Under the pieces are notes generated by a model. It saw nothing but the letters and a program-made list of their open reading frames with translations. It ran no database searches and was not told where the DNA came from. Positions 5,351 to 63,362 of a stretch of 64,000 nt of DNA are shown piece after piece; positions within the stretch are counted from its first letter, which is position 1; every line of letters begins with the position of its first letter. The stretch covers positions 496,001-560,000 of the forward strand of contig JAFCMP010000552.1 of the NCBI GenBank assembly GCA_017506865.1, in the 5' to 3' direction. Source of the DNA: Tribonema minus. Taxonomy: Eukaryota > Sar > Xanthophyceae > Tribonematales > Tribonemataceae. The position numbers and the translations under genes were made by a program.

Positions 5351-8300
5351 ATGGCCGATCTTGGCTCAGGCGAGCCTGATCCAAGAGGACTGGCATTTGC
5401 GGACCCGGAGCAGACAAACGGGACAGCATCGCCTCAACAGCCTCAAGTTGACGCCTCGCAAACTCCAATCGAGCACCCAGTTGACTTGTCCGATCAGGAG
5501 CCATTCCAAACGTCGATAGACAGCAATGGAGGCACCATCAGCGATAGCGGTGTCGGCAGCGCTGTTGACAAGGAGCCTGACCAGACTGCTGATGCAACAG
5601 CCGCACAAGATCCGGCGGCGCAGCAGGCGCAACCACCACCACCGTCGTTCACCTCCATAGTTCTGAGCCGCCACAACGCAGACATCACCTTCGGCGAGGC
5701 ACTGTGGGAGAAGCTGGATGGGATCAGAGACAAAGGCGCACACGGCGTCAAGGTGAGGATGTGACTGCTCAGCATTCCTGCATGCATGAATAACCAAGCA
5801 TTTTACGTTCAGGCCTAGCATCGCTTGAACCTTGACCCTACCCCTCGGACGTCAGCGGCCTCGCACTCTTAGCAGCCTGCATAGCACGGCCGGTGCAGTT
5901 CGTCCGCTCATTCACATCGCATGCAGCAGCTCAGCTGACCAACACCTGCCTCGTCGGTTCCACACGGCCGGGGCGGTCTGTCTGCTGTACTCAGCGCACG
6001 CGAATCGCGCACAAGCGCACCGTCTCGCTGCGCACACACTCCTGGCACTGCTGCAGCCCTCACCGCCCGGAGAGCGGGCACGCCACGGGCCGACACCTCA
6101 CTCGCACCTGCGCTGTACACGCGCTGCGCAGGTGTGCCGCGCCGTCGCCGCCTTCCTGCACGAGCGCGCGGACGTCGAGGAGGCGTTCGGCAAGGCGCTG
6201 CTCAAGGCCGTCAAGAATGCCAGCGCGGCGCTCGGCGGCTGGGCGCCGCGCCTGTGCGGGGGGGACGGGTGGGGGGGCGTCCTGGCGGCGCTGCGCAGCA
6301 TCGGCAAGCAGCACGTGGGCCTCGGCATCTGCGTGCGGCAGAACCTGAGCCGCGTGCTGGAGGTGTTCACGGCGACGCAGGCGCAGGAGGTGCAGCGGCT
6401 TGGCGACCAGGCGAGCTGCGTGGTCAAGGAGATGGAGGTGAGCGCTGCCGCGCTGAGCGCTGCCACATGGGGGGGCAGGGGCGGGGGTGCCGCAGTATCA
6501 GTTGGACAAAGCGGAGGGAGCCTGCGGCATTGGCGGCTTCTGCGCTGCGGTGCTTACTGCGTGTTCACGCACGCCAGCAGCCTGTGTGACAACAGGTCAT
6601 TCGTGCTGGCACACTGTGTGACGAAACGTGCCCACAGCATTGCTGCAGCTGCACGTGCTGCGCTGCGCAATCCGCAACGCCGCGCCGCTACTGACGCACG
6701 ACTCGGCACCGCGCACTGGCAAGAATGCACACCCCTACACTGCGACAATCGTGCATTGTGGGCAAGCGCGCGCTGCGCCATTATTCTGTCGCCGCTGCTG
6801 CACGTGCCGGCCCCCGCACACGTTGTTCACAGTAACGCGCAGTACAATATGCCCCCGCCCCCGCGCTCCGCAGGCGCTGCAGGCGCGCTACTACAAGACC
6901 AAGAGCGCATACGAGAAGGCGTGCATCGACGCCACGCGTGCGGTGGAGGCGCGCAACAAGGCGCAGGCGGAGGCGGCGGCGGCGGGCGCGGATGCGAGAG
7001 TGGCGGCGGCGGCGGCGCCCACGCCGCGCAGCGGCGGCGCCAAGGGCGCGTCGCTGATGCTCAACAAGATGCTGTCCAAGGCGGGCGAGGGGGTGACGAA
7101 GATGGGCATGGCCAAGGGGCAGGTGTGACGCTCCGCTATTGTGCTTATGCTTGTTAGTGCGCTTTTGTATGCTTGTGTGGCGTCAGGGATGCCATATTCC
7201 TGCTGCGGGTGTTGATTGCGAGAGACTGCGGTGCCTCCCTTCCGGCTGATGTGGAGCTGTTTAGCAGAAGCGCGCTGACTCAACATCACGTCAAGCTTCA
7301 TGCTGCATGATGCATGATAGCCTCGCTCAGATAAGTCAGTGGCGCCTTTACCTGCCGGTTTCCTCTACTACTACTTGCTGCTGGCATTGGCCACATGCTG
7401 CAAAGCCGCACCAGCATGTGGAATTCAGTATTCATCAGCATGGACTTTATCAGCATTGCATGATGACTTTGTTGCTTTCTAGTATGCAGTCGTGCATGCT
7501 CTGAAAAAACTCATAGTATGCGTTGTGACGTTTCTGCTAGTCTGTGTGCATTCAAGTACACCTCAGCTGCTGTGCAATGCATCGCTTACATACATGCGCA
7601 CATGCATGAACGTTATACGTCTATGTGTAGTACTGCGCAGGGGACCGCAGAGCTGGAGGAGTGCACACTGGTATACTGTGTACTGAACGTATATTGTACT
7701 GCTGGCATGTATGCTTTAAAATTCTTGCAGAATGTCAAGTAACACATCATTTACACACATGCGCATATACATAAATTGTGAACACATGTATTGTATTGCA
7801 CAGGGGACTGCGGAGCTGGAGGAGCGCGCGCGCACCCTGGCGGCGCAGGTCGACGGCAAGGAGCAGGCGTACATAGAGGCCGTAATGCAGGTCAACGGCT
7901 TCTGCGCGGAGTTTCAGGCGGTAATGGAGGCCAAGGTGAGCGGGCACCCTCAGCGCCGGAGTTCACCAGGAGTTCATCAGAGTTCAGAGGGCGCGGTGGC
8001 GAAGACGTGCTGAACCGCGGCGCTCTCACTTCTTTTTTGTGCGTAGCGGAAGTGTGCTGTTGAGCGCAGCTGGCGGCGGCGGTTTCGTGGCTTTGATGGT
8101 GTCTGCAGTCGGGGCCCATGATGAAGGAGTGTCAACTCGTGCACTTGCAGCTGAAGTTCCAGTTCTACACAACTCATGTGCCGCAACTTACGGTCTTGCT
8201 GACGCAGTACCGCCTTGAAACCCCGCTCGCGCCGCCGCGCGCCGCGCGCCGTCGCCGCCGCAGCTCATCAGGCTGCAGGGCAAAGAGGGGATCGCGCTTG

Positions 8301-11300
8301 CGTCTCCGCGCGCCGCTGCCGTCCCACTACAGTCCGCACTAACACACCGCCGCATAATCCGCTCGCGCCGCCGCGCGCCGCCGCCGCAGCTCGACAGCCT
8401 GCAGGGCAACGAGGAGGCGCGCGTCGCGTTCCTCAAGGACCTCTTGCTGCGCCTGCACAGCGCCGCCGAAGGCACGCTGGAGAACCTGACGGGGGCGGGC
8501 GCGCCGCTGACGCTGAGCGCTGCCGCGCTGTCGTCGCTCGCGCCGCGCGCCGACGCGGAGGCGCTCGCGGAGTTCATGCGTGCGCGCTGCGGGCAGTGGG
8601 GGGCCGCGGCGCTGGGGGGGGGGGGCGGGGGGCTGTCGCGGGACACCACGGGGGCGGGGGAGGAGGGCGCGAGGGCGGTGTTCGAGGGGGTGCGGGCGTG
8701 GGGGCTGGAGGCGGCGCGCGCGCTGCAGGCGGTGTGCGGCGTCCTGGGCGACGTCGCGTCGGCGCAGGAGTCGTACAGCAGGTGAGGTAGGGCGCTTAGT
8801 GTCGTCCGCAATGAGTAGTTGTTGAAGTTGTGCACGTGTGTTCGGTGCGAGCTTGCTGCGCCGGCGCAGGAGTCGTACAGCAGGTGAGGGGCGCGGAGTG
8901 TCATCCGCAATGAGTAGTTGTTGAAGTTGTGCACGTGTGTTCGGTGCGAGCATGCTGCGCCGGCGCAGGAGTCGTACAGCAGGTGAGGGGCGCGGAGCGT
9001 CGCCCGCAATTAGTAGTTGAAGTTGTGTACTGGAGTCGGTGGTGTGAGCATGCTGCACCGGCGCAGGAGTCGTACCTACAGCAGATGAGGCCCGGGAGCG
9101 TCGACCTCGTGAGCTGTTGAAGTTGTGCGCTTCTGCCGGCACGCGCAGCTGCGCCGATGGAGGCGTCGTACAGGTGAGCCACGGAGCGTCACCTTTGTGG
9201 GTTGTTGAAGTTATGCACCACCTGCGGATGCGTGCGCACACCGTGTCTGCTTGCGTACGCTGTCGCGTGCCAGTGATGAGGCAGCGCCGGCGGCGCAGGC
9301 GGCGCACAATGGCGTCATGGGAGACGCCGCGGTGGCGCTTGGGGATAAGAAGGCAGACGCAGGCGAGGCTGAGAGTGCCGGTGTGTACACCTCTGCCTTC
9401 AACGTGCAAATGCACATTGTATGTGTATAGTGCAGGCGTTGCGCAACCTGTAGCAGGTAGCCCACTGCACTTTGGTTGAAGTGAAGGTGAAGTATAGCAC
9501 TGGACATGGGAGGCACCCGTTGCAGATTGTGACAAAGCCCGCTCGGTTCTTATATCATGTGCACCCTTGTTCACCTAGACCCTCCAGCATTGCACGCAAC
9601 GGCATGCGCGCGCAGTGCCACATTCCCCGCTTCCCCAGGCCCGCTACCCCTCCTATCGCGTTCCGTGATGCCACGATGGCCGCGCTGTGCACCTGAGCTA
9701 ATTTCAGTTGCCATGACTGCCCCCGCCTTCCGCAAGGTCCCTTCTGCGGCTGTTGGAGCACCACGGCTACGCTGCGCCCGACATCACCCCTCTGCCCGGC
9801 AACGAGCTCGGGGACCTCTTTGCCAAGGGCATCATGCAGCAGCAGCAGCGCGACGTGTGCGCGGCCCTCATGGCCGCCGAGGGGCCCAGCCTCCGCGCCG
9901 GCTGGGACGCGATAGCGGTGGCGACGACGGTGGCGGCGGCGCGCTCCTCGCAGGTGAGCGAGATGATGGTACTGCTCTGCAGCAGAGCATGTGCCTTGAG
10001 GCACCCGCCGAGCACTGTGTCGCGTGCTGCGTGCGTGGTGAATGATGGCGGTGGCGACGACGGTGGCGGCGGCGCGGGCAGCGCAGGTGAGCGAGACGAT
10101 GGCAGCGGAGCATGTGCCACGTGCGCTGAGCGCTGGGTGGCATGCTGCGTGCGTGGCTCGTGATTGCGGTAGCGGCGGCGGCAGCGTCGGTGGCGGCGGC
10201 CGTGGCATGCGCCGCGCAGGTGAGATAGATGGTGGCATTGCTCAGCAGCGGAGCGGAGAGCGGCGTGCTTCGCGCATGCGCTGTGTGGCATGCTGCGTGC
10301 GTGGCTCGTGATGGCGATAGCGGCGGCGGCGGCAGCAACGGCGGCGGTGGCGGCGGCGGCGACGGCGGCGGCGCGCCCCGCGCAGGTGAGCGAGATGATG
10401 GCACTGCTCAGCAGCGGACAATGTGCCTAGAGGCGTGCGCTGAGTGCTGTGTGGCATGCTGGCACGCGGCGAATGATGGCGATAGCGGCGGCGGCGATGG
10501 CGCGCGCCGCGCAGGTGAGCAACATGTTGGCATCGCTCAGGAGCAGAGCGGAGTGCCTTCGCAGCGCGCCCGCCATGCGCTTCGCAGCGTGCTGCGTGCG
10601 TGGTCAATGATGGCGGTAGCAGTGGCGGCGGCGGCGGCGGCGGCAGCGCACGCCGCGCAGGCGATTGAGGCGCTGGCGCCGCTCGGCAGCGCAGCGTGGT
10701 CATGCAGCGCGCGTGCTGGGCGCTTTGTGGCATGCTGCCAGCGCAGCTTATGACAGCAAGGGGACGGAACAGGCGGCAGTGGAATGCGTGCGACAGGATG
10801 GCGACGGCGGCGTGCGCTTGGGGCAGAACACGCGCTCTGCGCAGTGCGCCATTCATGTGCTGGTGTCATGGTGCCATTCATGCCTGGTTGGCCATGGTGA
10901 CGCGTCAGGGCACACTTCGGGTCACAGGTAGGGTTAGGGTTCGCGACGCAATGGTGGCGGCGACGGTGGCGATGGCGGTGCACGTTCCATACTGCGAGTT
11001 GGGCTCTGTCTACAGTACTCAGCAGCGCATGTCTTTGAGACTGGAGCGTTACGCATGAGGTGCTACGCACACCGAGAGTGCCCTCAAACTCATGCACGAC
11101 TCATGCTGTCAATGCATCATGCTGTCAATGCATCATGCTGTCAATGCAACATGCTGTCAATGCATCATGCTGTCAATGCACCATGCTGTCAATGCATCAT
11201 GCCCTCGATGACATGCTGTCATATTCTTGCAGGTCATGGCCATGGCGCTGGGGAGCAGCTGGACTTTATGTGGAAGATACTGTGCATATCATAAGACTGT

Positions 11301-14300
11301 ACTATGACCAATGCGCCACTCACCTATTCACGCTTGCTGTGCTGACATATGACTGTCATGTTCTCGCAGGGCATGGCCATGGCGCTGGGGAGCAGCTGGT
11401 GCGTGGCGGTGAGCCAGATGCAGGACGAGGCCAAGGCCAGCAGCAAGCGCGCCGCGCAGGTACGCGGGCGAGCAGCGTCAGTACAGTACAGCGGTACACT
11501 CATTGACTTATTGAACTCCTTTTGAACTCTCTCTGAACTCTGAGCCGTGCCCGGTTTTTCGGTGATGTAACCGAGATGTAGGATGAGGCCAAGGCCAGCA
11601 GCAAGCGCGCCGCGCAGGTACGCAGGCGAGCAGCGTCAGTACACTGTTGCTGGCACAGCTGTACTCTCATTGGCTTTTTGAACTCTTTCTGAACTCTCTC
11701 CGAACTCTGAGGCGCGCGCCCGGTATTGGTGATGTAACCGAGATGTAGGACGAGGCCAAGGCCAGCAGCAAGCGTGCCACGCAGGTACGCAGGCGAGCAG
11801 CGTCAGTACAGTGGTGCGGGCACAGCGGTACACTCATTGACTTTTTGAACTCCTTCCGAACTCTTTCTGAACTCTGAGGCGCATGCCCGGTTTTGGTGAT
11901 GTAACCGAGATGCAGGACGAGGCTAAGGCCAGCAGCAAGCGCGCCGCGCAGGTACGCAGGCGAGCAGCGTCAGCAAAGTGTTGCTGGCACAGTGGTACAC
12001 TCATCAACTTTTTGAACTCTTTCTGACCTCTTTCTGAACTCTGAGGCGCGCGCTGGATTTCGGTTACAGCGCCGAATGACATGGACTTCTCATTGGGAAT
12101 CATTTTGGTACATGTATTTGCGCCACATGGCTAAGGTGAGGGCTTAGAGTCAGCTTCGTCTGGAGTCATGGCCAGCCGCAGTGCGCTGCTGCCGATAGGT
12201 GCCATGATCAGCAACGCAACGTCCCGAAAGCAGCTGCTCAGCGCGCCACCGCATCCATCGCGCAGCCTCCACTGCCAGCGCGTGCACCGCGCATGAGCAG
12301 CAGCAGCAGCAAACGACCAATGCACACCCTTCATTCACTCTCTCGTGCCTTCCACGCGCCGCCGCCGTGTCGCCGCCGCTGCGTGGTCTTGCGCGCCGCA
12401 GACGGTGGCCGACGCCGCCAAGCGCGTTGCGGCGGCGCGCGCTGCGCAGGCCAAGGCCATCGCGCGCCTGGACAGAGTCACGAGGGACATTGCAGACAGG
12501 CAGGACGCGCTCACACGCACACGCACCGGCGGCGACGGCGGCGGCGGCGGCGCGTTCGGCGACTGGGCCACGCACGACGACGCCGCCGCAGGTGCTGCTG
12601 CTGGCGTAGCGAATGGCGCCAGCGCGGCGGCAGCGGCGGCGCTCGACCAGTCGGGCAGCAGCACCGGCGGCGGCGGCAGCAGCAGTGGCGGCAGGGCGAG
12701 TGCAGCGGACGAGGGGTCGCAGGCGGTGGCGGCGGCGGCGGCAGCAGCGGCGGTGGGGCTGCAGAAGGGGCTGGAGTCGCTGGGGCTGGCGCAGGGGGCG
12801 GCGGACAGGGCGCGGACGCTGGAGGCGCGGCTCATGTCGCTGCTGGAGGAGAAGGCGCTGGCGCAGGCAAGCTATACTGTTTAGCTGTATTGTTTGTTGT
12901 AAAGCGTCCCGTGTTTGCGACCATATACACGTATTTCTCTTGGCCACTGCTGCCATGGTCTTCTACATCTGAAACTTGACAGCTTGCTGATTACTCTTCT
13001 GTCAGACGCTGTTAAGCAACGCGCTGTGGCGGCCCGACCACTGCGGCCTGTGCCGTAGCCGCAGCAGCGGCGGCGTCCGATGCTATTGCTGGCAGCACAC
13101 AGTGCGCGCTCTCGCTGCTGCTCTCTCGCGAGCATCTGAGCTCACTCACATGACATTGCAAATCTATCCACCTCATAGCTTACTTTCATCAGCACAGCAG
13201 GCGGTGACGGCAGGCGGGGAGAAGTTGGACACGCTGCCGCCGCCTTCTCTGCCGCCACTGCGCCACGAGACGCGGCTGCGCAGCCCCAGACACAGCCAGC
13301 GCCGCGCGCTCTGCGTAAAAAGGCATGCGCCGAGCTTGCCCGCCATGCCCATCTAACGCGGCGCTCCGCGACTCGCACCCCCCGCTCACCGCCGTGCGTG
13401 GCGGCGCAGGAGGCGGCAGCGGCGCACGGCGACGACATGGACACGGCCGCCGCGGCACTCACCGCCGCCGCCGCGGCACTCACCGCCGCCGCCGCGGCAG
13501 TGCTCGACGCGTCCTTGCAACATGTTATTGGACACTGCCGAGCGTGCCCATTTAACTGCGCTCTGCGACTCCCCCCCCCCCCCAACGGCCGCTCACCACC
13601 GCGGCACAGGAGGCGGTGGCGGCGCGCGGCGACGACATGGACACGGCCGCCGCGGCCCTCACCGCCGCCGCCGCGGAGGCGCTCGACGCCGTGCAGCTCG
13701 AGGACGGCGCGCGCTGGAGCACGCTGCTGCGCGTGCTGTGCGAGCTGGCGGGGAGCGCGGCGGCGGCGGCGGCGGACGTCGCGGCGGCGTGCGCGGCGGC
13801 GGCGCCGCTGCTGCGCGCCGTCGACAGCGGCGGCGACGTCGCGCACTTCGCGGCGGCGGAGGGCGCGGAGACAGCAGCCGGGGGGGGTTCGCCGATACTG
13901 CACAAGGTCCGTCGGCGCGCGAGTGCTGAGGCCCCGGGGGGCGCTGGTGTAAGGCTAGGGCTAGGATTAGGAGATTAGAAGGTTCTGGTGAAGGGCTCGC
14001 ACCGGCGTTTGTCGTGGTGATGGTGCAGTGTTGCGTCTCGAGCCCCGAGACAAGCGCGCAAATGTGCGCTCGCGTCGGTGTGCAGTGCGGTAATGATGGT
14101 GCACCGCCAGAAAGCCTGATGTCGCAATGTGCTCGAGCTTCACGACTGCCCCTGCCCGCATGCACAATGGCAGCGGCAGTGGCCGGCCCTGGTGCACCGC
14201 CCTGGTGCTGCATGATGGTATTGTGCGCGTCTTTGGTAGGGTCAGGGTCAGGGGAACCAGCTGCTGGTTCTTGTCAGGGCGTACGTGAGAAGTGGCGCTT

Positions 14301-19111: not shown

Positions 19112-19165
19112 CGACAAGCTTTCAGTTAGCCGTACTTTGCAGGCTGAAGGTCGACGACCGCATCT

Positions 19166-21183: not shown

Positions 21184-21400
21184 GCGCAGTGCTGCTGGAG
21201 ACACCTCCTGCCAGTACAAGGGAGCTTGTTTCCCTGCAGGAAAAGTTGAAGGACAGTGCCCAAGCACTGCATGCATGCTATCAGGTTGCTTGGGGTGCTG
21301 ACAACTCTATTTGCACCCCCCACACCACCTCTCGCCCCCATCGTATACTTTGTGTTTAGGCCCACAGTGCCGTCGTACACTTCATTGATAATCATTTTCG

Positions 21401-23514: not shown

Positions 23515-23563
<49 letters not shown>

Positions 23564-23601
23564 TGCACGATCTAGAGCTATCAGTCTTTCCTCGTCCTCC
23601 T
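21401..23601. other. Long intergenic stretch, no gene seen
   Basis: About 2.2 kb between the EsV-1-7 loci. It has no exon with coding-like composition and no family I recognise. GC content is lower than in the genes. TTGAAGTTCAG occurs near 23487. Confidence 0.45.
23515..23563. repeat. (GA)n microsatellite
   Basis: Nearly perfect GA dinucleotide run of about 49 bp, broken once by AAA, about 40 bp before duplication copy B. Confidence 0.95.
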
Positions 23602-27176: not shown

Positions 27177-27212
<36 letters not shown>

Positions 27213-27304
27213 GCTGCCGTGGCCGTTGCCACACCTTTGTGCTGCGGACTCACTGCCATCAAGATGGTGCTGCCTCTGGTGCTGCTGCCTGTTGAGCCCC
27301 CTTG
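25196..27304. other. Intergenic, no gene seen
   Basis: About 2.1 kb between EsV-1-7 gene B and the stop codon of the minus-strand HVA22-C2 gene. It contains a CAG-rich stretch near 26998-27040 and a CCG microsatellite at 27178-27209. No convincing exon. Confidence 0.45.
27178..27209. repeat. (CCG)n microsatellite
   Basis: Uninterrupted CCG triplets about 100 bp beyond the stop codon of the HVA22-C2 gene. Confidence 0.9.
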
Positions 27305-31943: not shown

Positions 31944-31974
<31 letters not shown>

Positions 31975-33431: not shown

Positions 33432-33529
33432 ATGTCTACTTGTGCATCAGACAGCAGTGCCGCTGTGGATACGCATAGCTTCCAGCGCCAAGAGCCACAA
33501 CAGGCCCTGCACCAGCAGCAAAGCCAGCA

Positions 33530-33560
<31 letters not shown>

Positions 33561-36063
33561 CAGCAGCGCAATACGGTGCAGCACTTGATCGCGGGCACTG
33601 CTGCAGGCCTTGTATCCACCACTGCTTTCTACCCTCTCGACTTGGTCAAAACGCGATACCAGGCATACCATCAGGGTGCCTCGCCGTACGCCTCTCTGTC
33701 CTCGGCGTTTAAGACAATAGCGGAGCAGGAGGGGTGGAGAGCGCTGTATGCGGGCCTGGTGCCGTCTGTATGGGGGGGAGGGCTGGCGTGGGGAGCCTAC
33801 TTCTATCTCTATCAGATGTCCAAGGATGCTTTACAAACGGGCACCGGCGCGGAGCAGCTGAACGTATCGCACCACCTCACGGCAGGTGTACTTCTCGAAC
33901 TCTATACGCGTGAGCTGTCGCAAAGCCCAGTATCTCTAGCGCTGTCTGGGTCAGGGTGACTGTAGTCGGTCAGCAGGTGCTTGGAGAGCATCTCTCACTG
34001 CATGCGGCATGACTCAGTGAATCATCGACTGTCAAATTGAAACCACGGCTCTTTCCAAACAAGACGTGTCTGTCGGCATTGGTGGAGGTGCGAGTGCACT
34101 GACTGCTGAGTACGATATGAGCGGTAGGCAGCAATTTCATTCTCAACGCTTCAGAGTCGCTCAGATTCACACAAATGCAACAACGCTTTGCAGTGCTCAT
34201 GGACACAGCGCAGTTGTCACATTGCAACCATGTCGCACAAAGTTCTTGATTCCTTGAGGCCTAGTTGAGGCTGTGGTGCGCGGCATCAGTTTGCGGTCAG
34301 TCGCAGTTCCGCTGGTTGTGGCATCCATCGCGCCTTGTCCTCTTGCGCCTGTGCGCAGGTTTAATGGCAGGCAACATTCTGGTCCTCCTGGGCAACCCCG
34401 TGTGGCTGGTCAAGACGCGCCTGCAGCTGCAGACGCGTGACAACACTCAGCGCCTGGGCCGGCGCCCTTACAGGTGCGAGGAGGGCCCGCTGGCGTTCAA
34501 AGCAGTTTTGTTGTTGAGCCTCGCTCTTTGGCCCCGCCCCCCCCCTTGCAAGGCCTTCACGGACGAGCTGGCGACCATTACGCGAGATCAGGGCATGCTA
34601 GCACTGGAAGCAGTGGCCATTATCACAGGTCACTAATACTCCCCCCCCCTCCCCCCCGTGCAGGGGCTCCATGCTCTACGTCTTCTTGCTCCCTTGTCAT
34701 TGGTCGGCTTGCTTATGCTTGCCAGCAGCGATACACTGCTGCTTCTCCACTTGCGGAGCACTGACACTGTCCAGGGGTCCAGAAAAAGGCCTTCACGTTC
34801 CACGTTCTGTGAGCGCCAACCTAAACAGCCCCCCCCCTCCCCCCCCCCCCCCTTTGCAGGGGCTTCACGGACGCGCTGGTCACCATTGCGCGCGAGGAGG
34901 GCGCTCTGGCGCTCTACAAGGGCATCGTCCCCGCCATGCTGCTGAGCACGCAGGGCGCGCTGCAGTTTGCGGCGTACGAGTGGCTCAAGGGCTGGGTGCC
35001 GCGCGACCTGCAGCAGAGCAAGCCCGTGGAGAGCCTGGTCATGGGCGGCGGCTCCAAGATCTTTGCGTCCGTGGTGAGCGCTGCTGCTCCTGCTCAGCCC
35101 TGACAGACAGAACTGTGCACACACTCTCTCTGGGCGCGGGGTGGGGGGATGGGGGAGGGAGAGGGAAACCCATGGGGGGGGGGGGGGGGGGAGGGAGAAC
35201 CCCATGGAGGCGCCTTGTTGTTTGGCCTGGCACGACCATGAGCGCCCTGCCACGATCAAGAGCCCGCTTGTATGCTGCAATAGACGAGGGTGGCCACAGT
35301 ACCTCTCTTGTCATGCACTTGCGCGTCGCGGGTGACATTTCCCCCACATGAGCAGATCATTACCACGTGTCAGCGCTCCGCGCCTCAGCGCTCAGCGCCG
35401 CATGTGCCACACCGCTCAGCGCCCCCCCCCCCCCCCCCCCCCTCCCCTGTCTGCAGGTGACGTACCCCACGCAGGTCATAAAAACGCGGCTGCAGGACAG
35501 GGCAGCGGCAGCGGTGAGCGCTGCTGCCGCGGGCCGCTCCATCTACACGGGGACCGCGCAGTGCGCCGCGCTCATCTGGAGACAGGAGGGCGCGCGCGGG
35601 TTCTTCAGGTATGCGTCGCAACCTCAAACATGCCTGCATGCGTGCGTTTGTTGCCATGGCTCTTGTGGCTCGGTGAACGTCGCTGCATTCTTGACAGGGA
35701 GGTGGCTTACTATGGCATCAATGCTGCCGGCGGACGTCGGTCCTAGCTGCGCATACACAAACACCGCTGTCTGTTTTTGCAGCGTTCGGCGCTCCCTTGG
35801 CACCAGGCGGGCGCGTGCGGGTTCCTGCGCCCCTGTTCCAATGCCCCTTGTTTCTGTACCTCGCAAGTACGACAGACTGCGCGCTGGTACATGCTTTGAC
35901 ATGATTAACACGTCACATTATCTCCGCTGCGTTGATCAATGCCAGGGGGTGCGTGCCCTATGCGCTGCGCGCGGCGCCGGCGTCCGCGGTCACTTTCGTC
36001 GTGTACGAGGAGGCCATGCGGCTGCAGCGCGACGCAGGCGGCAGTGGCGGCGGCTGGGGCTAG
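33432..36063 (+). CDS. Mitochondrial carrier, SLC25A32 (folate/FAD) type
   Basis: Exons 33432-33885, 34359-34473, 34860-35073, 35457-35608 and 35946-36063 join in phase to 350 aa. Three carrier repeats are visible: FYPLDLVKTRYQAY, GNPVWLVKTRLQLQ and TYPTQVIKTRLQD, each the Px[DE]xx[KR] type or its variant. The second (NPVWLVKTRLQLQ) and the ending GCVPYALRAAPASAVTFVVY are characteristic of the SLC25A32/FLX1/NDT branch, which carries folate, FAD or NAD across the inner mitochondrial membrane or plastid envelope. The exact substrate cannot be told. The N-terminus has a poly-Gln run of about 15 before the first helix. It is divergently paired with the HVA22-C2 gene. Confidence 0.9.
33525..33567 (+). 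repeat. CAG/CAA repeat coding poly-Gln
   Basis: Imperfect CAG/CAA run inside exon 1 of the carrier, coding roughly 15 Gln in a row. It lies in the poorly conserved N-terminal extension. Confidence 0.9.
34535..34800 (+). repeat. Acceptor-side copies of carrier exon 3
   Basis: CTTGCAAGGCCTTCACGGAC at about 34545 and GTGCAGGGGCTCC near 34658 repeat the true exon 3 acceptor and start (TTTGCAGGGGCTTCACGGAC at 34853). The first copy also retains GAGCTGGCGACCATTACGCG. Confidence 0.75.
35422..35442 (+). repeat. C21 polypyrimidine tract
   Basis: A pure C run followed by TCCCCTGTCTGCAG, the acceptor of carrier exon 4. Confidence 0.95.
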
Positions 36064-37067: not shown

Positions 37068-40000
37068 ATGCTGTCAAAAGCAGCGTTGCAACAGGCATCC
37101 GGCGATGACTCAACCTCCTGCATCCTACAGAACTCTACGATGACGGAGCGCGGGGGGGACTCCATAGACTACGGCGAGCTATTCACGCCTCCTGTGACGC
37201 CTCCTCCGCAGAAGAGGTTCTTCGCAAAGCTGCTGGGAGATCTTGTAGGCTCGGCATCAGATGAGCAGCAAGCAGGCACCCCCAGAGCGGAGCAGAATCC
37301 GGTCGTCGCCAACTACTGGCAGAACTATGACCTCTCCACCAGCACAGAGCCAGATCTGTTCAAGCCAGAGGACCTGTCCTCCGTGATGATCCTGAAGAGC
37401 GGCCTGAATGCCATGCTGATGCGCTTGCATGTCCAGCGCCGCATTGACAGCAAGGACAGGAGGCACCAGGACAGGGCCGCTACGAGGATACAGGCGCTGG
37501 CGAGGCAGTGGCTGGTGATGAGGAGGCTGCCGGAGCTTGCGGCTGCCATTGAGAAGCACATCAAGCTCACTGGCAACATCAGGTGCTCATCTTGATGTGG
37601 TTTTCAGGCTGCTTGCGCTGCTCTTACTGGTTCTCCCTGTGCCGCAGGCTGCAATCAGGCGCGTTCACCTGTTGCGGGCCTGCTTTAGATTAAGAATTCT
37701 CACGCGGCAGCGAGCTTCAAGTGCAGTCATGCAATGGCGGTGAGCCCTCGAGCTGCCGCTCATGCAGCACACGCCATACTCAGTGCCACTGGCAGCGGCC
37801 CGAGCCCTGCCACGTCCGACTGCATTTTTCATTCGCTGCACAGCAACGTGCAAGCTGTCCCTGGTCAGGTGTATATGCAGAGAACTGAGGCTCCCTATAG
37901 CACAGCACCAGCATTGTGTGTCAGGCAATCCACATGGGTGTCCTTGCCTGCAATGAGCACAACGCCATATGTGATGCGAAATACCTGCCACAGCCTGCGG
38001 CCGCAAAGTGCCAGCACGTAAAGCAGGGACTGCTGCAGAAGAGGCGTCCACAATCACAACTTCAAGTTGGGGAGCGTCAGCAAACAACCGATGGCGCTCC
38101 CGCCAAACCCACTCGATCTGCTCCTCCAAAGCGGACGCCGCTTCGCAATACATACGATGTCAGGTGTCGACACAGCGACAGAGGCGGACTGCAAAGACAC
38201 GTGCCACAATGCACACCAAAGTTAGCAGCATCGCGTGGCACATCTTTACACTTTATCATATCTAGTAAGTCCCATTTTGAAATGACATTCATGCCATGCT
38301 GACAGAAATGAATGGTTTCCAAGGAAACGCCTATCACACTGCTGGTCTTGCCGTGATCTTACCCCTGCTTAGGCAATGAGAGTACTCATCTTAAAGGTGG
38401 CTTACTCGCTTGCGCAATGAGAGCTCTCAACTCAAAGTTGGCTTCCATACAAAAGCCCTATTCTGAGCTTGGAATAAAGTGATGAAGTTGAAGACTGCGA
38501 CTCACGACTCACGCAGGCGCTTCAAGCGCGAGCTGCTGGAGCGCGGCGTCCCCCTGGGCGAGTTCAACTGCGAGAGCGGCGGCGTGCAGTCCGCGCTGCT
38601 GCGGCCGAACGCCAGCCGCAACGCGCTCATCTGGCGCAAGAACGCGCTCAGCAAAGACGCCTCCGTCCCCCTCATCAAGCTCAAGGTTAGTGCGTGCCTG
38701 CGCCGTGTGCGTCTTGCAGCAGGCGCGCATGCTTCCTACTCATGTACCCATGAGTGCACTGCGGGTTCTGTCGTTTGCCGGAACATTGTTTCGAAAGCGG
38801 GCTTTGGGTCTGCATTTGCAGACAGCGCAATTGTGGCTTTTGAGAAGACTCTTGCGTTTCAACATGCCCACAGAAACTGCTTTAACGGTCAGCGTGCTGC
38901 TGCATTCGGCCTCTGCTCTCAAGAATACTCTGCACTATACCCCTATACCCTGTGCGGCAGGCAGGCACCGTCATGCCTGCCAGATCTTACATACCCTGCG
39001 CCTTATACTACCCTCCCCCCTTGCCTTGTATACGTGCTAACTCCTTCCCTACACACTCACGCACACCTCATGCCTTGCGTACATGCCCGCCCCCCCAGTA
39101 TACATACCCCCCCCCCCCCTTGCCCAGATCATGCAGCCGCATGCGCCTGCCGCTTGCATCCTCACACACTAACACGCCTCCATGTACTGCAGCTGCGCAG
39201 CGCTCCAGCTGCCGCACCCCCCCTTTTTCAGCACCCGCGCACAAGCACCAGCCAGCGCTGGCCACCACCGCCCCTCTCAACGGCAGGCCTGTGCATTCGA
39301 CGCACGCCGGCTACTTCAGGCCACCCCAGCCGGTCAAACACGCAGAGTGCTCTCCCTCTGCTAAACCCCTACAGTACTTGGCAAGATCCCACACAGCGCC
39401 CACCGCCCCGCCCCCCCCCCCCAGTCTCGCTGACGTTCCGCTGCTCTCTCGTGCGCGCGCGCCGTCGCAAAGTGCAGGCCTGCTACGCGGGCTACCCGCG
39501 CACAGGGTTCCCGACGCCGGCCATGGTGGCGCGGCGCACGCGCCTGCCGGACGCGGAGCGCGCGTTCACGCTGCAGCGCGAGGACACGGGCGCGAGCGTC
39601 GTGTTCCTGGTGCGCGCCGCCAAGGACAGGGCCGCTGTAGTGCGAGGGCTGCAGGCGATCGTCAACGAGGTGCGTATGTGGTTAACAACTGGTTGTGCGA
39701 CGTGTTTATTAGGGTTAGGGTCAGTGTGCAGGGTTAGGATGAGGGTGAGAGCGTCGTGTTCCTGATGCGCGCCGCCAAGGGCAGGGCTGCTGTTGTGCGC
39801 GGGCTGCAGGCGATCGTCAACGAGGTGCGCGTGAGTTTGCAACGCGCTACTAGGGTTAGGGTAAGGGTTCACGCTGCAGCGCCAGGACACGGGCGCCAGC
39901 GTTGTTTTTCTGGTGCGCGCCACAAAGGGCCGCACCGCCGTCGTGCGCGGGCTGCAGGCGATCCTTAACGAGGTATGTAGATATCGAGGTACGTAGGTAT

Positions 40001-43000
40001 TCAACGCGCCTAGGGTTATGGGAGGGTGAGGGTTCAGCGTCAGGGTCAGGGTCAGGGACAGGGTCAGGCGATCGTCAATGAGGTACGTAGGTATCTGACA
40101 CGCTTAGAGCTAGGTGTAGGGGCAGGGTTAGCCCTAACCCTAACCCTAACCATGGGGTCAGGGCTGGGGTTTGGGTTAGCATTGAAACAGGGGTAGGTCT
40201 AAGGTCAGGGGTGTAGGGATAGGGAGAGGGTTAGAGTTAGGGTCAGGGTGTGGGACGAGGGTCAGGGTTGAGCAGGCGGCGGTGCGCGAGGACAGCCCCC
40301 GCAGCGGTGCGGGCCTCGCAGGCATCAACGCGGAGCACTGCTGCCGCTCGATCGTACTGCGGGTTGGCGATGCTCAGCAATTACGCACGTCATGCGCCGT
40401 TTGATCACGTCATACTTGCAAACACGCTTCTTCCGCATGCCCGCTGCTCGTCTCGCTCGTCCACCGGGTCCGCCGTGCTTCTGACTGTGTCAGGCACCAG
40501 CGCTCGACTGCCGCTCAATGACGTGCCTGCTGCGCAATGATGATCACAAGCTGGGTCTGGGTTGCTCTGAGCACTGATAGAGCATGCTGATCACTGCCAT
40601 TTGGTTGCTCAACGCGCGCTGGGGTGGGGTTGACTCCAGCCCTGTTGTGGACCCTAACTGCCTGACCCTGCGACATACGCACGTGATCGCATCAGCAGTA
40701 GCAGCACAGTTGGCGGCACTACGCTCGGCAGCAGCGCGCTCCGTGCACGAGGGCTAGGGTTAGGGCTAGATTTAGAGGCAGGGCTGAAGCTAGGGCTAGG
40801 GTTAGGGTTAGGGTTAGGTTTAAGACCGAACCGACGTGCGCTGCCAGGTCAGGGCTAGGTAGACAGGCAGGGCCAGGGCTGGGGCTAGAATTGCGATCAG
40901 ACGTCCAACAACCCATGTGTGCTGCCAATATCTGCAGGTGAGCAGCCCGGAGGCCTTCTACTTCGATGAGGGCGGCTGCGTACGACACGCCCCGCACTCC
41001 ATCTTGGGGCTAGGGTTAGGGTTAGGGTTGGGGTTAGGGTTAGGGTTAGGACCAGGGTTAGGGTTAGGGTAACACTCAGGCGCCCAACAAATCACGCGTA
41101 TGCTGCCAAAATCCACAGGTGAATAGCCCAGATGCCTTCTACTTTGATGAGGGCGGCTGCGTGCGGCGCGTCACGCGCTCCATCTTCGACCCCAGCGGCA
41201 ACACGGCAGTGCGCGAGGCGCGGCGGCGCGCGCGCGCGGAGCGCATCGAGGCACGCCGGTGAGCACTGGGCGCAATTCATATATTTACTTGAATACTACA
41301 AAGTATACATACACGAAAATGAATACTTCGAAGTATAAAGATCGTAGAGCTCTAGGTGACAAGGGGTGGTTGGCCGCAAGTGCCTTCCACCAATAACCGT
41401 GGTCGCCGCTGCTGCAGCAATTGGCCACGAGGCTATAGAAGTATGTGTGAAAGGAGGCGTGCTGATAAGTATGCACGTGTACTTTATCATAGAGCGCATC
41501 GAGGCGCGCCGCTGAGCACCAAGTAGGCGTACTTTATGGGAAAGAGGAGTGCCTGTATGTATGCACATCTACTTTATCGAGGCCGTGCGCGAGGCGCGGC
41601 GGCGCGCGCGCGCGGAGCGCATCGAGGCACGCCGGTGAGTACTGGGCGTACTTCATATATATGTACTTCGAAGCATACACTTCTATGTATATATCAGGGC
41701 GCGCCGGTGAGTACTGGGCGCACTTCATGTAGAAGTATGCATGTATATGGGAGGAGGAGTGTTCATATGTATGCACATGTACTTTATCGAGGCGCGCCGG
41801 TGAGTATTAAGCAGGCGTACTTAGGGTTAGGGTCAGGGTTAGGGTTAGGGTTAGGGTTAGGAGTGCATGTATGCGCAACTGATTTGAAGCGACGTATGTG
41901 TACAGGGGGGGGGGGGTCAGGATGTAAGAGCGCTTGATATGAGAGCAGTCATAAAATGAGAGCGATTCGGCGGCTGGACACATATCTGGTGTATGCATGC
42001 ATTGTTATTGTGAGCATGCACGTGAGAACACATTGGTCGTTGCGAATAACACCAAAAAGGACTCGTGTATATGTATATATACTTCGCAAAGAGCGCATGG
42101 AGGGGAGCACCTGGCGTTACATGTAGCTTGACTTGTAATGAGTGAATGCCTGTGTTGTCATGCAGGTAGACTATCGTACCATGAGCATATGAGTACAACA
42201 TGAGGCAGCACACTTGTGTACGGCAGCAAGTACTGTGAATTGTGCCTGGAGCCATGCGCGTGCGTGGAGATGTACGGTAGCGGATGAGCGCTTTGCAAAA
42301 TGCCACAACAAGACTGTTGTGGTGGTGCAAGGCCTGAGAATGGAGGGAAGCTGCCCATGGACTGCTATTTCTGATTGTTATCAGCGGCAGTGGGCCTCGT
42401 GTCCGTTCTCTGCTTCATCTCCGTTTTCTGCGAGCACAGAACGCGCGACAAACCACATGGACAACCTCCGCGCTCTGCCGTGCTCCCTCGCAGGGCGCAG
42501 CTACTTGAGGAAGCGTGCTTTCAATCACCATAACATGATCACATCTGCCACGGATGCACATAGTACAATGCGGTCAGCTGCGCTGAGCATGGATGCCCCG
42601 ACCGCACTCCTGCAGGAAACAGCTGGAGGCGGCGGAGGCGGCGCGGCAGCAGCGCGCCGAGACGCTGCGCGCGCGCCGCGAGCGCGCCGCCGCGCACGGC
42701 AGCGGCAGCACCAGCGCTGCCGCCCCTGCCGCCAACGACAGCGGCGGCGGCGGCGACGGCGGCGATGACGTGCTTGCAGCGCTCACGAGCAGCCTCGATG
42801 ATGCCTGCAGCGCGTCGCCTGAGCGCCGCAACCGCACGCGCCACTGGAGCCAGCGGCTGTCGGGGCTGCGCAGCAACGGTGTGGTGTCGCCGCGCTCGCT
42901 GCGCCTGCGCGCGCCGTTGCTGTCGCTGCCGGGCCTGTTCAACCGCCGCCGTAGCCGCACGTCGGCGTCGGCGGCGGCGGCAGAAGCAGCTGCGGCGGAG

Positions 43001-43431
43001 GCAGCGGCAGCTGCGCCGCCGCCGCCGGCGCGCAGCGCAGCGGCGACGGGCCCGTTGCTCAGCAGCAGCGCGAACCTCGCGCTCAACGGCAGCGTGGACT
43101 TGGCGGCGGTGTACTTGAACGCCAGGCTGTCGCTTGCGTCGTCGTCATCGGCGTCGTCCGCAGCCGCACCCGAGCAGCAGCGCCGCGGCAGCGGGGCTCA
43201 GAGAGGGAGGGCTGTTGAGCATCCCAGCAGCGGCGGCGGCGGCGGCGGCGGCGGGGGCGTGATGCGCGAGGGCAGCAGCAGCAGCAGCAGCAGCGGCGGC
43301 AGCAATGGTAGCTATGCCAGCAGCAGCCTGTCTAGCGGTGAAGCCTCGTTTTGCAGCCAGGACTTTGATTACGGAATCAGAAATGAAGAAGCCGGCGGCA
43401 GCGTTTACGAGGGCGACGGCAGCGGCGCTGC

Positions 43432-43468
<37 letters not shown>

Positions 43469-46123: not shown

Positions 46124-49100
46124 TTACACCGAGCAATGCTGCGCATCCGCTGAGCACTGCTCACCTGCGCCATCGTTCGCGCCGCGCTCGGTGAACACGA
46201 GGCGCACCGGGGGCGGCCCGTAAGAGGAGCCTGCAGTGGGCACCGGCTCGTCCTGCCACTCGGCGAGCGAAATGGAGAAGCGCTGCAGCAGCGTCGCCAC
46301 CGCCACCTGCGCGTGTCGATGTAAAAATGATAGGGTTTAAGTTCCTGAGTGGAAGAACAAGCTAAGATTTGCTTTCTGCCTGAACCAAAGTGTTTTTTTG
46401 TCTGCTGTACTTGGGAAGCAGTCGTGACATCGCCAAGCAGTGTGATTAGGCGACGGAGAGGTACATGGGCGAGAGCCTGATGTTGGGCCGGCTGTTGATG
46501 AGCAGCAGCGCGTGCCGTTGCGACATCTCTGGGTGCAAGTCATTACGCGCATAATTTCGTCAAGGGCTTCCAGCGATTGCCGTGAGAGAAGTGCAAATGG
46601 GGGATCGACCCCAACCCGCACATTCCACTTTCGCTCCACACTTCACAGCGCGGCACACGCCTTCAGCTGCGGCTCCGCCACCGCCCGCGAGGTCAACCAC
46701 TACAAAGGCAGTATACACCCCACATACCCTAACCTGCTTATCGCACTTCCACACTCTGCGGCTCGACACTTGCCTTCAGCTGCAGCTCCGCCAGCACCTG
46801 CCACGCGCACGCAGCCGCGCCGTGGCCGAAGGGCATGGACGCGTCGCCGCGGTGCCGCTGCCGCCGCTGCCGCGCGCGCCGCGGCGGCTGCTCGGCAGCG
46901 GCGAGCCAGCGCTCAGGCAGGAACTCCGCCGCCTTGGTGAAGTTCTCTTCGCTCCTGCGCATAGGACAGGGGGGCACGACGGGGGGCGTGGCAGCGAGCG
47001 GCAGTCAGTAGAGTGCTCGGCAGTGCGGCAGCAGCGTGGGATGCGCGTCAGCGCTCGGGGCAGGGCGCCGCTGCGAGTTTTGACAGCGGCACTAGGTGCA
47101 GGGTGTAGCAGCGAGCAGCGCGATACCTACGGTAGAGTCGGTTAGAGCACAGCGTGGCGCAGAGCACTGCCGCCCTGTTGAGGTTTTCAGTGCTCCGGTA
47201 ACTACACAGGTAATTAATCACGCAGCATGACGTCGCAACAGTCAACAGCAGTGCTCGGAATCCGTCAGAGCCGCCAAACTTCTCATGTGATGCGGTTCAC
47301 CGCTTTGCAATGAGCAGATGAATCGCACAGGAAGGCCCCGGAAGCTGCTGCCTTCCACAGCCGCACCGCATGCATCGCTTCCTTCTTGAACCTCTCTGTT
47401 GCATCATGCAGCTGGCAATCAATGCAGAAATCCCCTTCAAAACCCATGCCGCCAGTCCGCCCGAACGCATTATGCACTCACGCGCGCCCGTCCCGTCTCA
47501 GCAGCACTCAGCAGCAGCAGCGCTCACCTTGCCGCCGCCCCCGTGAGCAGCACGACGTCGGTGCCGCGCGGAGCGCTGACATGGCCCACCGCGGCATCAG
47601 CGGTAGCAGCGCTCAGTGCGATGGCGCCGCCGCCGGGCGCGTGCAGCCGGAGCGACTCCTGCACGACGGCGCTAAGGTAGGGCACGCCGCCGCTGACCTG
47701 AACAGCGCAACGGGCGGTGACGTATGAATTTGCGCAAAGTGGATGGTGCTGTTGCTGCTGCAAATGCACGGTTAAAGCGGTTTCTTGTAATGGTTTCATG
47801 GATGCTGGTTTACTGAATACGGAGCCTGAGCGACTCCTGCACGGCGGCGTCCGGGTAGGGCACGCCGCCGCTGACCTGCACAGCGAAATGGGGGGTGACG
47901 TATGCGCGAGTGAGCGGCGCTGCTGCTGCAACTGCATGGCAAACCGGTTTCTTGTAGTGGCTTTATGAATGCTGGTTTACTGAATGCAGAGCGTGAGCAA
48001 CTCCTGCACAAAGGCGTCCAGGTAGGGCACACCGCCGCTGGCCTGGACAGCACAACGGGGGCAACGCTTTTGTTGAACGGCGTAAGCAGGCGGCGCTGCT
48101 GCTGGCAACTCCCCTGCAAGTTTCATGAACGCTGGTCGACTGAATGCAAAGCCTGAGCGTCTCGCAGGGCGCGTTCTGGACAGCGCATGCTGATTCGCGC
48201 GTGGGCGGCGCTGCTGGTGGTGAATGCGCGGCAAGGCGGTTGCTTCAGCGTTGTGGTTCGTGAATACTGGGTAACTGGATGTGGAGACCTTGAGTGACTC
48301 CTGCATGTTGGTGTTCGGGGCCGGCGCGCCGCGTGCATACATATGCGCAGGTGAGCGGTTCTGCTGTCTGTGATGGCAATGCAGTCTCTTGCCCTCAGCA
48401 TAGGTGAATTTGCAATGCCATCTTTGCGCATTGCACAATCCCCCCCCCCCCCCCGGCCCAAGGTCATGGTTTCCTACATGCTTCGGTGCCGTATGGCCCA
48501 GCATGGGTGCTGCGCGCTCTACGCCTCTACTTTTAATATCACATGTAAGCATATTAGCCCAGCTACACACAAAGGCACTGAGCAGTTGACGCGCAGGGGC
48601 TGAAGGAGAGCCATACACAGCCAGATCGGCCCTGGATTTCAGGTACTCCAACACCCTAACCGTGCACACAAATCCCACCTATCCACTGTGACTCTCCGTT
48701 GATCACAACTTCTAGTAAGCGTTCAAGTCAGCGCACAGGTAATCCGCAAGATGGCGTGCCCACTCGCCTGCTGCCAGAGCAGTGCGTCCGGTCCCGGCGG
48801 CGCGCTCGCGCCACCGCCGCCGCTGCTGCCGCTGCCGCTGTGCTCCGTCGTGACGCGCACGCCCCCCGCGCCGCCGCCCCCCCCGCCCCCCGTGCCCTCC
48901 GCGCTAATTACTGCCGTTGCGCGCACGGTGACGGCGTCGTGCACGATGGAGTCGCTCACGAGCGTGCGCGGCGGCGGCGGCGCGGCTTGTGCTGAGCGGT
49001 GAGCTGGCGGCAGCGACAGCAGCGCCGCAGCGCGTTCTCCGCTACAGCTGCTGTTGCCGCCGCCGCTGCCGGCAGTGGTGCCGCTCCGTGTAAGGCCTCT

Positions 49101-52100: not shown

Positions 52101-52343
52101 AGCTGCTGCTGCCGTCTCGCACTCGAGGTGCTGCCTACGCAGCACTTGCTGTCTGAACCTCTGCGTGCTGCCGCACCGCAACCCCACTTCAACCACAGCA
52201 TCATGTAGCCGCAACACCAGCAGGCCGCAGGAGACAACGCATCTCCTGCCACTCATCACCTTCACTGCGCGACAGAGGCGCCGCTGCTGCTCCTCCAGCA
52301 GACACGAAGCGCTGTCACCTCGCGCGGCCAGCATGTGCTGAGC

Positions 52344-52374
<31 letters not shown>

Positions 52375-55300
52375 CTGCCGTCATCGCTGTGGCGCTCGTC
52401 GTCCGAGCCGGCTTCATCCTCGCTGTCGGCGCAGGGATGCTGGACGCTGCTTACAGCGTGATCGTAGCCACTGGCGTCATCAGACGCGTGCCTGCGGCAG
52501 TACGCGCAGGGGCAATGTACTGTGGGGTTGATGCTTCTATGACATACATACTTGGGGGGAAAAATGAAAACCATGTTGCCTGACTTCTCCAGCTGCGGGG
52601 ACCAGACGGTGTCCTGCGTGAAGTGATGGATGAGGGCTGCGCAGCAGAAGAAGATGAAAAAAGTAGATACGCTTCGCGTCGCTCTGACTCTGCCCACCAC
52701 AGCCAGTGCAAACCGTTGCTGCTCACTGCAAAATGCAGGCCTGACACAGATTGCGACAGATTGCGATACTATTTGACCAACGCGACTCCACACCCTGCGT
52801 GCGGGCATAGTCAAAGGTGGGGGACCGCCCTAACGGCGCATACATCATGCGTGCATCGCCTCACAAGCCCCCTATGACTTGGCGTATGACTCCTGTATCA
52901 CATGACACCTGCCTGTTGCTCACAAACCTGTCCTCCTCTAATCTCTGGCCCTCACATATACATATACATACACATACATTCAGAAGTACATAGGCAGTTG
53001 CAAGTACGCAACAGCTGCCATGCTTCAGAACGGTACGTGCTACATGCAAGTACATGCTGTGGCACGCATGCAACAGCTGCCATAGTAAGTAAAAGTACGG
53101 AACGGCTGCCATGCCCAACAAACAATACGTACCATCCTCCGTTGAGCGCTGCCGCCGGCAGCAGCTCGTCCGCGGCAGCCAGCAGCGTGCGCGCCACAAA
53201 CTCCCGGGCCTGCCGAGCCGTGTCACGCGCGCCGCCGCCGCCGCCGCCGCGCAGCCGCAGCAGCTGCCACCACCGGCGCCGCTGCTGCCGCTGCTGCCGC
53301 TGCTGCTGCTGCACTGTGCCAGGCTGGAGCAGCACGGCAAGGCTGGTGCTGAGGCGGTCGGCTATGGATGGTTTCAGGCGCCAGCCGAATGCCGCCACGA
53401 GGGCGGTGGCGAGGCCGTAGGTGCCGGCGTCGTGGGTTACGGAGATTGCGTCTGCAAGAGAGGGGTGATGTAGGGGGGACAGCCGCGCAGCGTGGGGTAG
53501 GTGGTGTGTGTTGGTATGTATGTAGAGATACATAAACATGCTCAGAGGTGCGCTATCAACCGCCTAGGCTTTTCGCGCCCTCGGTGAGAAATAAAGACAA
53601 AAAGTACCTGAAGCACTGACGACGCTCTCGCAGCGATGGAACTTCCCTCCGCCACGTGAAAGATGCCGCACAAGACGCAATGACAAGGCGCTAACATTGA
53701 ATCAAATGGAATATTGACACATTGATGAGCGGTAGCAGAGGTTAGTCTAGGCTTGTGGTGCGCTGGCACCCGGCGAGGTACGAGGTTGCAGAGCACTGTG
53801 ACACCTGGAGCGTCACCTGCGCCATGCGCCTACTGCAAGATTGCAACTCCTAAGACAAAGACCTACCTTCACTCTGGACACAAGGCGAACACGCGGTGAA
53901 TGCATGAACAAGTGGGGCAGTACTACGATGTGTATTGTGCGCACTGTATGGTTGTCACCTAAGGAGTCACTAGGGAGGCATGGGGTTGCAGGGAGCGCTG
54001 TGTCACCTGGAGCGTCGCCCGTCCACTCACTCACTTCAAGATCAACATGCTGTGCAGACCTCCCGTAGTACAGTACGGGTATGGACTGACCCTGACCCTG
54101 ACAGCAAGCTATCTTGGGTTTGTGCACCGCGTGCTTGTCACCTGGCGAGACATGGCGTTGCGAAGAGCGCTGCAGCACCTTACGTTTGTGCCTGCATGCT
54201 TGTCTCTGTGCAAAAGTAGGCTGCGGAGCGCTGACTCACCTGGAGTGTCACCTGTGGCGTGCGCCGCCTGCAACACGCACTTGTTGGCGAACGCCGCGGC
54301 GGCGTGGTGCAGCGCTGGCAGCACAGCCTTCAGTCTTGACGCCCTGGAAGGAGACGCGCACACAAACGGTGGAGAGAGACGCACGTTCATATCGTGAGTT
54401 TCCGTGAGATGACATGAAACGACTCAGCACGTGTGAAGGTTGCGCGTCCTACCGTGAGTCTTTGTGAGATGACACGAAGGGATTCAGCATTCGACGTGCC
54501 CTGTCGTGAGTCCATGCGTGATGACATGAAGCGGCTGGGCTCTCATGATGGAGTCATACAGGTTGCGCGTCTTATTGTGAGTCTCTGTGAGATGGCACGC
54601 GCAGTGGCTTGGCGCTCATCAGTGCTCAGGCGTCATAGGTAGGCAAGCACTGACGTATCTGGCATGCACTCGCGGACAAGCATCGAAGTGTGGTTGTGGT
54701 GCGTGTGCCAAGGCCAAGCAGGAAGGGCGCACACAAAGATCGGGCAAGTGCTGAGATGTCCGCAGCGGCTTGCGCCTCAGCTGCTGGTGTGCTTTGGAGC
54801 TAACAGTGCCCATGACAGTGTGTGTGGTGCCTTGAGCACTTGCGCAAGGTGAGTGTGCGCTTGAGGACGCTTGCGTGCGCGCGCAGCACCTCCGCAAAGG
54901 GGAGTGTGGGCCTGGGGCGGCTTGCACTCACCCGCAGCCACCACCTACCACTCACCGAGTGCGTTCATGCTGGTGATGTAACGAGCACGCGATGCTCAGT
55001 GTCATTCAGGCAGCTGTACTCTAACGAAGTGTGTCATCGCGGTGCCAGCAGCAACATCATTGCTCACAATTGCAACATTCTGCACGAAGTTGCGCTTGCA
55101 ATTGTTGGCGCATTCGTGCGTGGTCTGCCGGACCTTGGCACGCATGGGGAAGAGACGCTCCCACCTTGGACGCATACCTCAATTCCTTCGTGTCCTGCAT
55201 GCTCATGAGACTAATGTGCACTCACTGGCATTGCGGCTGTCCCAAATTGACTTGCTTGAAGTCGGCGCTGGTCACTGCTGAATGCTTGGGGCGCGTGCGT

Positions 55301-63328: not shown

Positions 63329-63362
<34 letters not shown>

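Follow-up and report, generated by a model that had tools for sequence, protein, structure and literature searches.

Introns of the yellow-green alga (xanthophyte) Tribonema minus are lengthened by tandem duplications that span exon-intron junctions: a segment made of the edge of an exon, its splice site and part of the adjoining intron is repeated inside that intron. The pattern is real and is spread across the sampled genome. The DNA analysed (322,880 bases) was taken from a genome of 158 Mb in 554 contigs. It comprises the window (the whole stretch of 64,000 nucleotides at 496001-560000 of its contig), 22 merged loci around mitochondrial-carrier domains and 18 arbitrary 10-kb stretches. Repeats of the window were located by self-comparison (self-alignment) and with Tandem Repeats Finder. 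Both agree with a previous reading of the window from its letters (the sequence-only reading), which had placed repeats of exon edge, splice site and intron at named places in at least five genes, with copies on the donor side, the acceptor side or both. Both sides were found. Its view that existing introns are lengthened by junction-spanning tandem duplication was also borne out, and no new intron was seen where homology fixes the splicing.

Repeat families were counted from pairs at an offset of 40-1000 and at least 45 bits. Junctions are the predictions of a self-trained ab initio gene finder, except in homology-pinned genes; with plain self-training the finder called copies as small exons, so a penalised version with removal of copy exons was used. 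In the window and the 18 stretches, 218 repeat pairs were detected, versus 0 in each of 5 dinucleotide shuffles. The raw families are 34 on the donor side (179 predicted donors) and 16 on the acceptor side (182 predicted acceptors) in the 322,880 bases. One of the latter is a coding repeat at window 23978-24890, which sits as acceptor-side in the raw family and simulation counts; without it, 34 donor-side and 15 acceptor-side families remain (49 spanning). The other families lie inside complete introns (18), in introns open at the end of a stretch (10), outside genes (17) or in exons (3); two more are a coding repeat at window 19483-21164 and the F-BAR family at 13192-13676. Three internal families of locus L036, mobile- or satellite-like in look, are retained in the family counts and simulations. 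An early hand count, by which about 16 of 18 window arrays spanned junctions, was superseded by these systematic counts.

Under a stricter alignment, copies are found at 28 of 178 donors and 11 of 180 acceptors, the donor side being the commoner (Fisher p=0.004). The strict counts for donors and acceptors are 5/48 and 4/50 in the window, 16/82 and 7/83 in the random stretches, and 7/48 and 0/47 at the carrier loci. By this method at least one copied junction is present in 7 of the 18 arbitrary 10-kb stretches, so that the pattern extends past the window.

Where homology pins the gene, the conserved protein appears to come from the exon-adjacent junction. Aspartate aminotransferase (AAT, locus L034), read from exon-adjacent junctions, gives an ungapped alignment of 227 residues to a solved homologue and is 100% identical to a deposited T. 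minus protein over 85% of the query. CPSF73 (L041) and a CTD phosphatase (L042), read in the same way, also align to solved homologues without gaps. These three genes hold several exon-edge copies within their introns. For the folate-type carrier of the window, the transcript-derived protein P0001 (EukProt; 94% identity over 53% of the query) fits the junctions, including the exon-adjacent acceptor at 34860. The source of P0001 would be a close relative or another strain. A few carrier residues are replaced in it by a stretch that we take to resemble translated sequencing adapter. Because the conserved AAT, CPSF73, CTD phosphatase and carrier proteins come from exon-adjacent junctions, the copies in these genes appear to be intronic, and the copied splice sites are apparently bypassed by the splicing machinery.

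The junction is reached by 63 of 64 exon-derived intronic copies, as a tandem duplication across the border demands. Units are mostly 100-200 bp, with a median nearest-copy offset of 155 bp and a few larger offsets (307, 376, 435). Multiples of three are not preferred: 8, 17 and 14 unit lengths leave a remainder of 0, 1 and 2, respectively. Outside the window, two repeats are each confined to a single non-carrier exon, and their offsets, 87 and 72, are multiples of three; the remaining exonic family corresponds to the natural repeat of a carrier. In 66 copies, exon and copy differ at 82/1128, 69/1135 and 156/1139 sites of codon positions 1, 2 and 3 (7.3, 6.1 and 13.7%), which points to a copy that is free and an exon that is constrained. 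Conserved exon parts had been considered as a sign of selection on the copies; this was dropped because the codon positions give no sign of coding constraint on them. Coding repeat arrays (window 19400-25000) were excluded from the junction-reach, offset, strict-junction, codon-position and dinucleotide counts, and a mis-set junction (10086) from the last two.

Copied splice sites are neither purged nor clearly protected. Copied donors read GT (37), GC (6) or other (2), and copied acceptors AG (19) or other (2); that is, 43 of 45 and 19 of 21 are usable. Retention at the copied site is barely above that of the flanks, a comparison biased by alignment ends. The sequence-only reading had also stated that decay grows with distance from the exon. 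At 17 multi-copy junctions the nearest copy is the more similar in 9, the less similar in 4 and tied in 4: the direction is weakly as stated, without significance (p=0.27). Among predicted introns (window, carrier loci and first ten stretches), 28 of 171 start with GC instead of GT, a share that is high if real and partly finder-dependent; one such intron follows exon 8 of the F-BAR gene.

The explanation given about an even chance combines random small tandem duplication with selection for the exon-adjacent splice site, the arrays being kept recognisable by the conserved exon. Small tandem duplications (mostly 100-200 bp) would arise genome-wide, probably via end-joining repair. Those inside coding exons that alter the protein would be lost. 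Those spanning a border would survive if the exon-adjacent copy of the junction retains its own splice context. The extra copy would turn into intron, its spare splice site leaving no trace in the conserved protein. With the exon side fixed by selection, the copy should be recognisable for longer than an intron-internal repeat and may be able to recombine or slip again. Arrays would thereby gather at junctions and introns would lengthen. The used site may need native context (branch point, polypyrimidine tract, donor-side elements). Such a need would account for the spacing of the nearest copy, which keeps a minimum of 53 nt of native intron past the used donor and of 72 nt ahead of the used acceptor. 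It would also account for the scarcity of acceptor-side copies, given that a complete upstream acceptor should compete. Of this account, the data show the tandem nature of the repeats, their many loci, the use of the exon-adjacent junction in homology-pinned genes and the lack of coding constraint on copies; the repair mechanism, the selective filter and exon-anchored re-amplification are inferred.

The share of spanning families was compared with a null in which placement is uniform for duplications of unit L and survival is limited to those that spare the protein; for intron length I the spanning share is then about 2(L-1)/(I+L-1). Simulated with the observed unit and intron lengths, it amounts to 32% of all families, to 40% of detected ones, since exons preserve their side of the repeat, to 23% with exons masked and to 22% in the high-identity class. 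If native intron of 53 nt at the donor or 72 nt at the acceptor must also be left, the values are 20, 25, 19 and 18%, respectively. Observed spanning families of all ages are 50/68, or 50/78 with open introns (49/67 and 49/77 minus the coding repeat); with exons masked they are 27/45, or 27/55 with open introns (26/44 and 26/54 minus the coding repeat). That the spanning share is simply that of uniform duplication was rejected by these simulations. In the high-identity class, 6 of 17 families in introns span a junction (p=0.24 versus 22%, p=0.10 versus 18%). The fraction is 6/15 without L036 (p=0.12 and p=0.04) and 6/14 in complete introns only (p=0.10 versus 22%). High-identity duplications number 17 in 192 kb of intron and junction (8.8 per 100 kb) and 5 in 64 kb outside genes (7.8). 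In these 323 kb, the focus of mutation on junctions proposed by the sequence-only reading is possible yet not established, and the boundary excess over introns and intergenic DNA by which it was to be checked was found in part: the all-age excess stands (26/44 masked, about 19-23% expected), and the high-identity class shows neither a significant excess nor a clear difference in density. The young events are compatible with a uniform origin followed by filtering, and also with a modest junction bias.

Several results weigh against random origin followed by filtering. The masked all-age excess over the uniform simulation is strong (27/45 versus 23%, p=2e-7; 27/55, p=4e-5; coding repeat included), is significant under either null and is greater still with the splice filter (19%). 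High-identity events become borderline once that filter enters the null (6/14 in complete introns, p=0.03 versus 18%); their class is small (n=17 in introns) and its selection rule favours multi-copy families. The test of the 53-nt limit used a value derived from these same data. Outside homology-pinned genes, gene models are purely ab initio. Copies with an exonic identity of at least 0.93 have an intronic identity of 0.69 (n=37; 40 bases from +7), below the 0.88-0.90 that simulations under identical detection predict. For intron parts, identity in a global alignment says little by itself, as gapped random sequence scores high, so anchored alignments, shuffles and simulations were used. Gene conversion by the exon could underlie the excess decay of intron parts, as could weak constraint or frequent additional small duplications there, one of which was seen by eye in L042. 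With exons masked, the 26 spanning families have a median of 4.4 units (92% above 2.5) and the 27 internal ones a median of 2.0 (26% above 2.5). Such multi-copy enrichment is expected under masking because pairs between intronic copies escape it; when all 49 spanning families are taken together, their median of 2.5 does not differ from the 2.0 of internal ones (p=0.74).

Part of this evidence would suit mutation focused on the junctions themselves, for instance through breaks or nicks at borders of chromatin, R-loops or composition at exon edges, an explanation that is unlikely though it deserves weight. In its favour are the spanning excess, with one coding repeat in each of the two raw counts, the lean of high-identity events in the same direction (p 0.03-0.24 by null and subset) and the position of the breakpoints. 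The latter lie nearer the junction in exons than uniform placement predicts (scaled mean 0.27 versus 0.5), and 53 nt of intron is left in 36 of 36 cases versus about 25 of 36 (joint p 3e-7, for a data-derived limit and with truncated alignments pushing the same way). That breakpoint pattern would, however, also follow if the used site required some 50-70 nt of native intron beside it, and truncated alignments bias it in the same direction; the density of high-identity duplications is about equal in introns and outside genes, their excess is not significant in the full 17, and the spanning families detectable under masking are mostly multi-copy. The number of units is suggestive of exon-anchored re-amplification. 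Exon edges might act as conserved anchors: homology between exon and copy would outlast intron repeats, recombination or slippage would copy the junction again, and introns would grow from their ends. This is put forward tentatively and is rather doubtful. If true, intron growth of this kind would be a mode in its own right, inherently biased in location, needing no special targeting enzyme and leaving behind full splice sites that are tolerated.

It is quite improbable that copies are selected as spare or decoy splice sites, or as U1-binding sites aiding splicing, expression or regulation, as the sequence-only reading had suggested in the case of decoys. The usable dinucleotides are mostly kept, and exon-derived parts diverge less than intron-derived ones, also between pairs of intronic copies (0.88 versus 0.73, n=41; ascertained on the exon part). 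Yet a change of about 7% per site (codon positions 1 and 2) would spare most dinucleotides anyway, and copied sites roughly match their surroundings in retention, without a clear advantage. The copies are under no frame or codon constraint and occur at a minority of junctions. That the copies are used, as duplicated alternative exon ends in mRNA or as new introns, is very improbable and is disfavoured for homology-pinned genes by the fit of their proteins. In its favour, some copies are called as small exons by the gene finder, and a boundary-spanning duplication did create a new intron in the potato RdRp gene (Ma, Lan and Niu 2016, PMC4974935); against this, conserved proteins carry no insertion at these places (the deposited AAT, P0122, being judged by identity and coverage), and 31 of 39 unit lengths are not multiples of three. 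An assembly artefact or chance similarity, for which no supporting point was found, is hardly credible: shuffling leaves none of the pairs, and copies differ from the exon, many by 5-20%, at many loci in long contigs.

The kind of mutation, tandem duplication, is known; its outcome differs here, as it acts on intron length. The potato event (PMC4974935) is alike in being a direct tandem duplication able to cross an intron-exon boundary with its splice signals copied. It is unlike in yielding a new intron and an inserted exon, whereas in T. minus the protein is unchanged, an existing intron is longer, and the events are common and often multi-copy. That paper also mentions an 83-bp duplication in the neighbouring intron, with no exon changed. 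Duplication in or across exons is direct in T. minus, as in intron gain by tandem duplication. No new intron was found, as judged from proteins and not from a relative's gene structure: the AAT, CPSF73, CTD phosphatase and carrier proteins are conserved across the examined junctions. When broken DNA ends with overhangs are joined in mouse and human cells, small tandem duplications with little microhomology result (Schimmel et al. 2021, PMC8355091); the breaks of that study were induced, and its introduction cites units under 100 bp. In six two-copy T. minus events, chosen by eye, the alignment is 0-4 bp longer than the offset. Break repair is a plausible origin of the T. minus duplications.

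Intronic minisatellites resemble the present arrays as tandem arrays in introns with a copy number varying by locus. They differ in that the T. minus unit includes exon sequence and a splice site, and the outermost unit of the array is the functional exon edge. Introner elements are one sequence family present at many loci, changing intron content genome-wide. Intron content is altered across the genome here too; unlike introners, the array of F-BAR exon 7, the one array searched in the whole genome, gave 1 match, which is itself. No description of the pattern was found in the titles and abstracts of the literature searched (most subscription papers fall outside that search). To our knowledge, intron lengthening, in contrast to gain, has been little documented apart from transposon insertion. 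In this 158-Mb alga about one donor in six has close copies of exon end and donor downstream of it, which raises the question of how the spliceosome chooses among near-identical splice sites 100-300 nt apart, and that of tandem duplication as a steady source of intron length.

The families of the window are listed below.

Table. Copies of exon edges and splice sites in the window (offsets and periods in bp)
Gene	Feature	Position	Strand	Method
F-BAR	Acceptor-side copy, intron end and exon start at 7804, offset 165	7580..7827	+	self-alignment
F-BAR	Acceptor-side copy before exon at 8390, offset ~130	8223..8414	+	self-alignment
F-BAR	Donor-side array, period ~100, exon end 8781 with GTGAGG and intron, 3-4 copies	8756..9218	+
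F-BAR	Donor-side array, period ~130-166, exon end 9953 with GTGAGC, 4-5 copies	9909..10753	+
F-BAR	Acceptor-side copy before exon at 11370, offset 137	11216..11399	+
F-BAR	Donor-side array, exon end 11459 with GTACGC, period ~158-167, ~4 units (3 copies), 88% identity	11416..12064	+
F-BAR	Acceptor-side, two copies before exon at 13610, offsets 199 and 412	13192..13676	+
HVA22-C2	Donor-side copy, offset 153	28338..28537	-
HVA22-C2	Donor-side copy, offset 172, 92% identity	31393..31649	-
Folate-type carrier	Acceptor-side copy before exon 3 at 34860, offset 307	34532..34902	+
Labelled 'PH'	Donor-side array, period ~155, exon end 39669	39564..39974	+
Labelled 'PH'	Acceptor-side copy, offset 179, exon start 41119	40869..41186	+
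Labelled 'PH'	Donor-side copies of exon end 41258, offset 376 at 95%, and shorter ones	41205..41822	+
P450	Donor-side copy, offset 113, 44.6 bits (under the 45-bit limit of the family counts)	46635..46801	-
P450	Acceptor-side array, period ~170, about four units	47645..48332	-
Further predicted gene	Donor-side family, offsets ~200 and 435	53783..54273	-

The F-BAR gene, of 12 exons, has seven junction-spanning families; its 12-exon model, built without the copies, forms a single open frame whose introns are GT/GC...AG. For the copy before 8390 the frame is open through the copy as well, and the gene finder preferred 8264 or 8279. In the array at 11416..12064 the entire unit recurs, intron part included. 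The deposited protein P0121 (JKP88DRAFT_339217; window 5498-7150, plus strand) includes sequence of two introns of the F-BAR model, and at that place the public model looks wrong. A Pfam scan of the window proteins confirmed FCH/F-BAR, VASt, HVA22, C2 and P450. GRAM, beside the VASt domain, scored 22.6 bits, just under the 23.6 cut-off, and no PH domain was found by Pfam in the 296 scanned residues of the gene labelled 'PH'.

At start and stop codons, 0 families were found at 47 predicted gene ends, which the gene finder sets poorly. In L027 (1100-1716, minus strand), the following non-coding DNA holds copies of an apparent coding 3' end reading into TAG, a duplication of the same kind at a coding border, probably with no splice site. 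L043 (3363-8920) and L036 (4751-6912) contain long satellite- or mobile-element-like repeat regions.

The two coding repeats of the window (19483-21164 and 23978-24890, plus strand) are arrays of a 126-129-bp unit with regularly spaced Cys and His, and lie in neighbouring stretches that are ~80% identical. The unit presumably resembles the EsV-1-7 repeat of brown algae. Interstitial TTAGGG- or AGGGTT-like tracts occur at window 16170-16217, 31484-31535, 40750-41080 and 41821-41861, several of them in predicted introns. An imperfect inverted repeat (~240 bp, 74%) lies at window 61352-61594, and long G or C runs at 247-273, 61555-61593 and 63331-63365.

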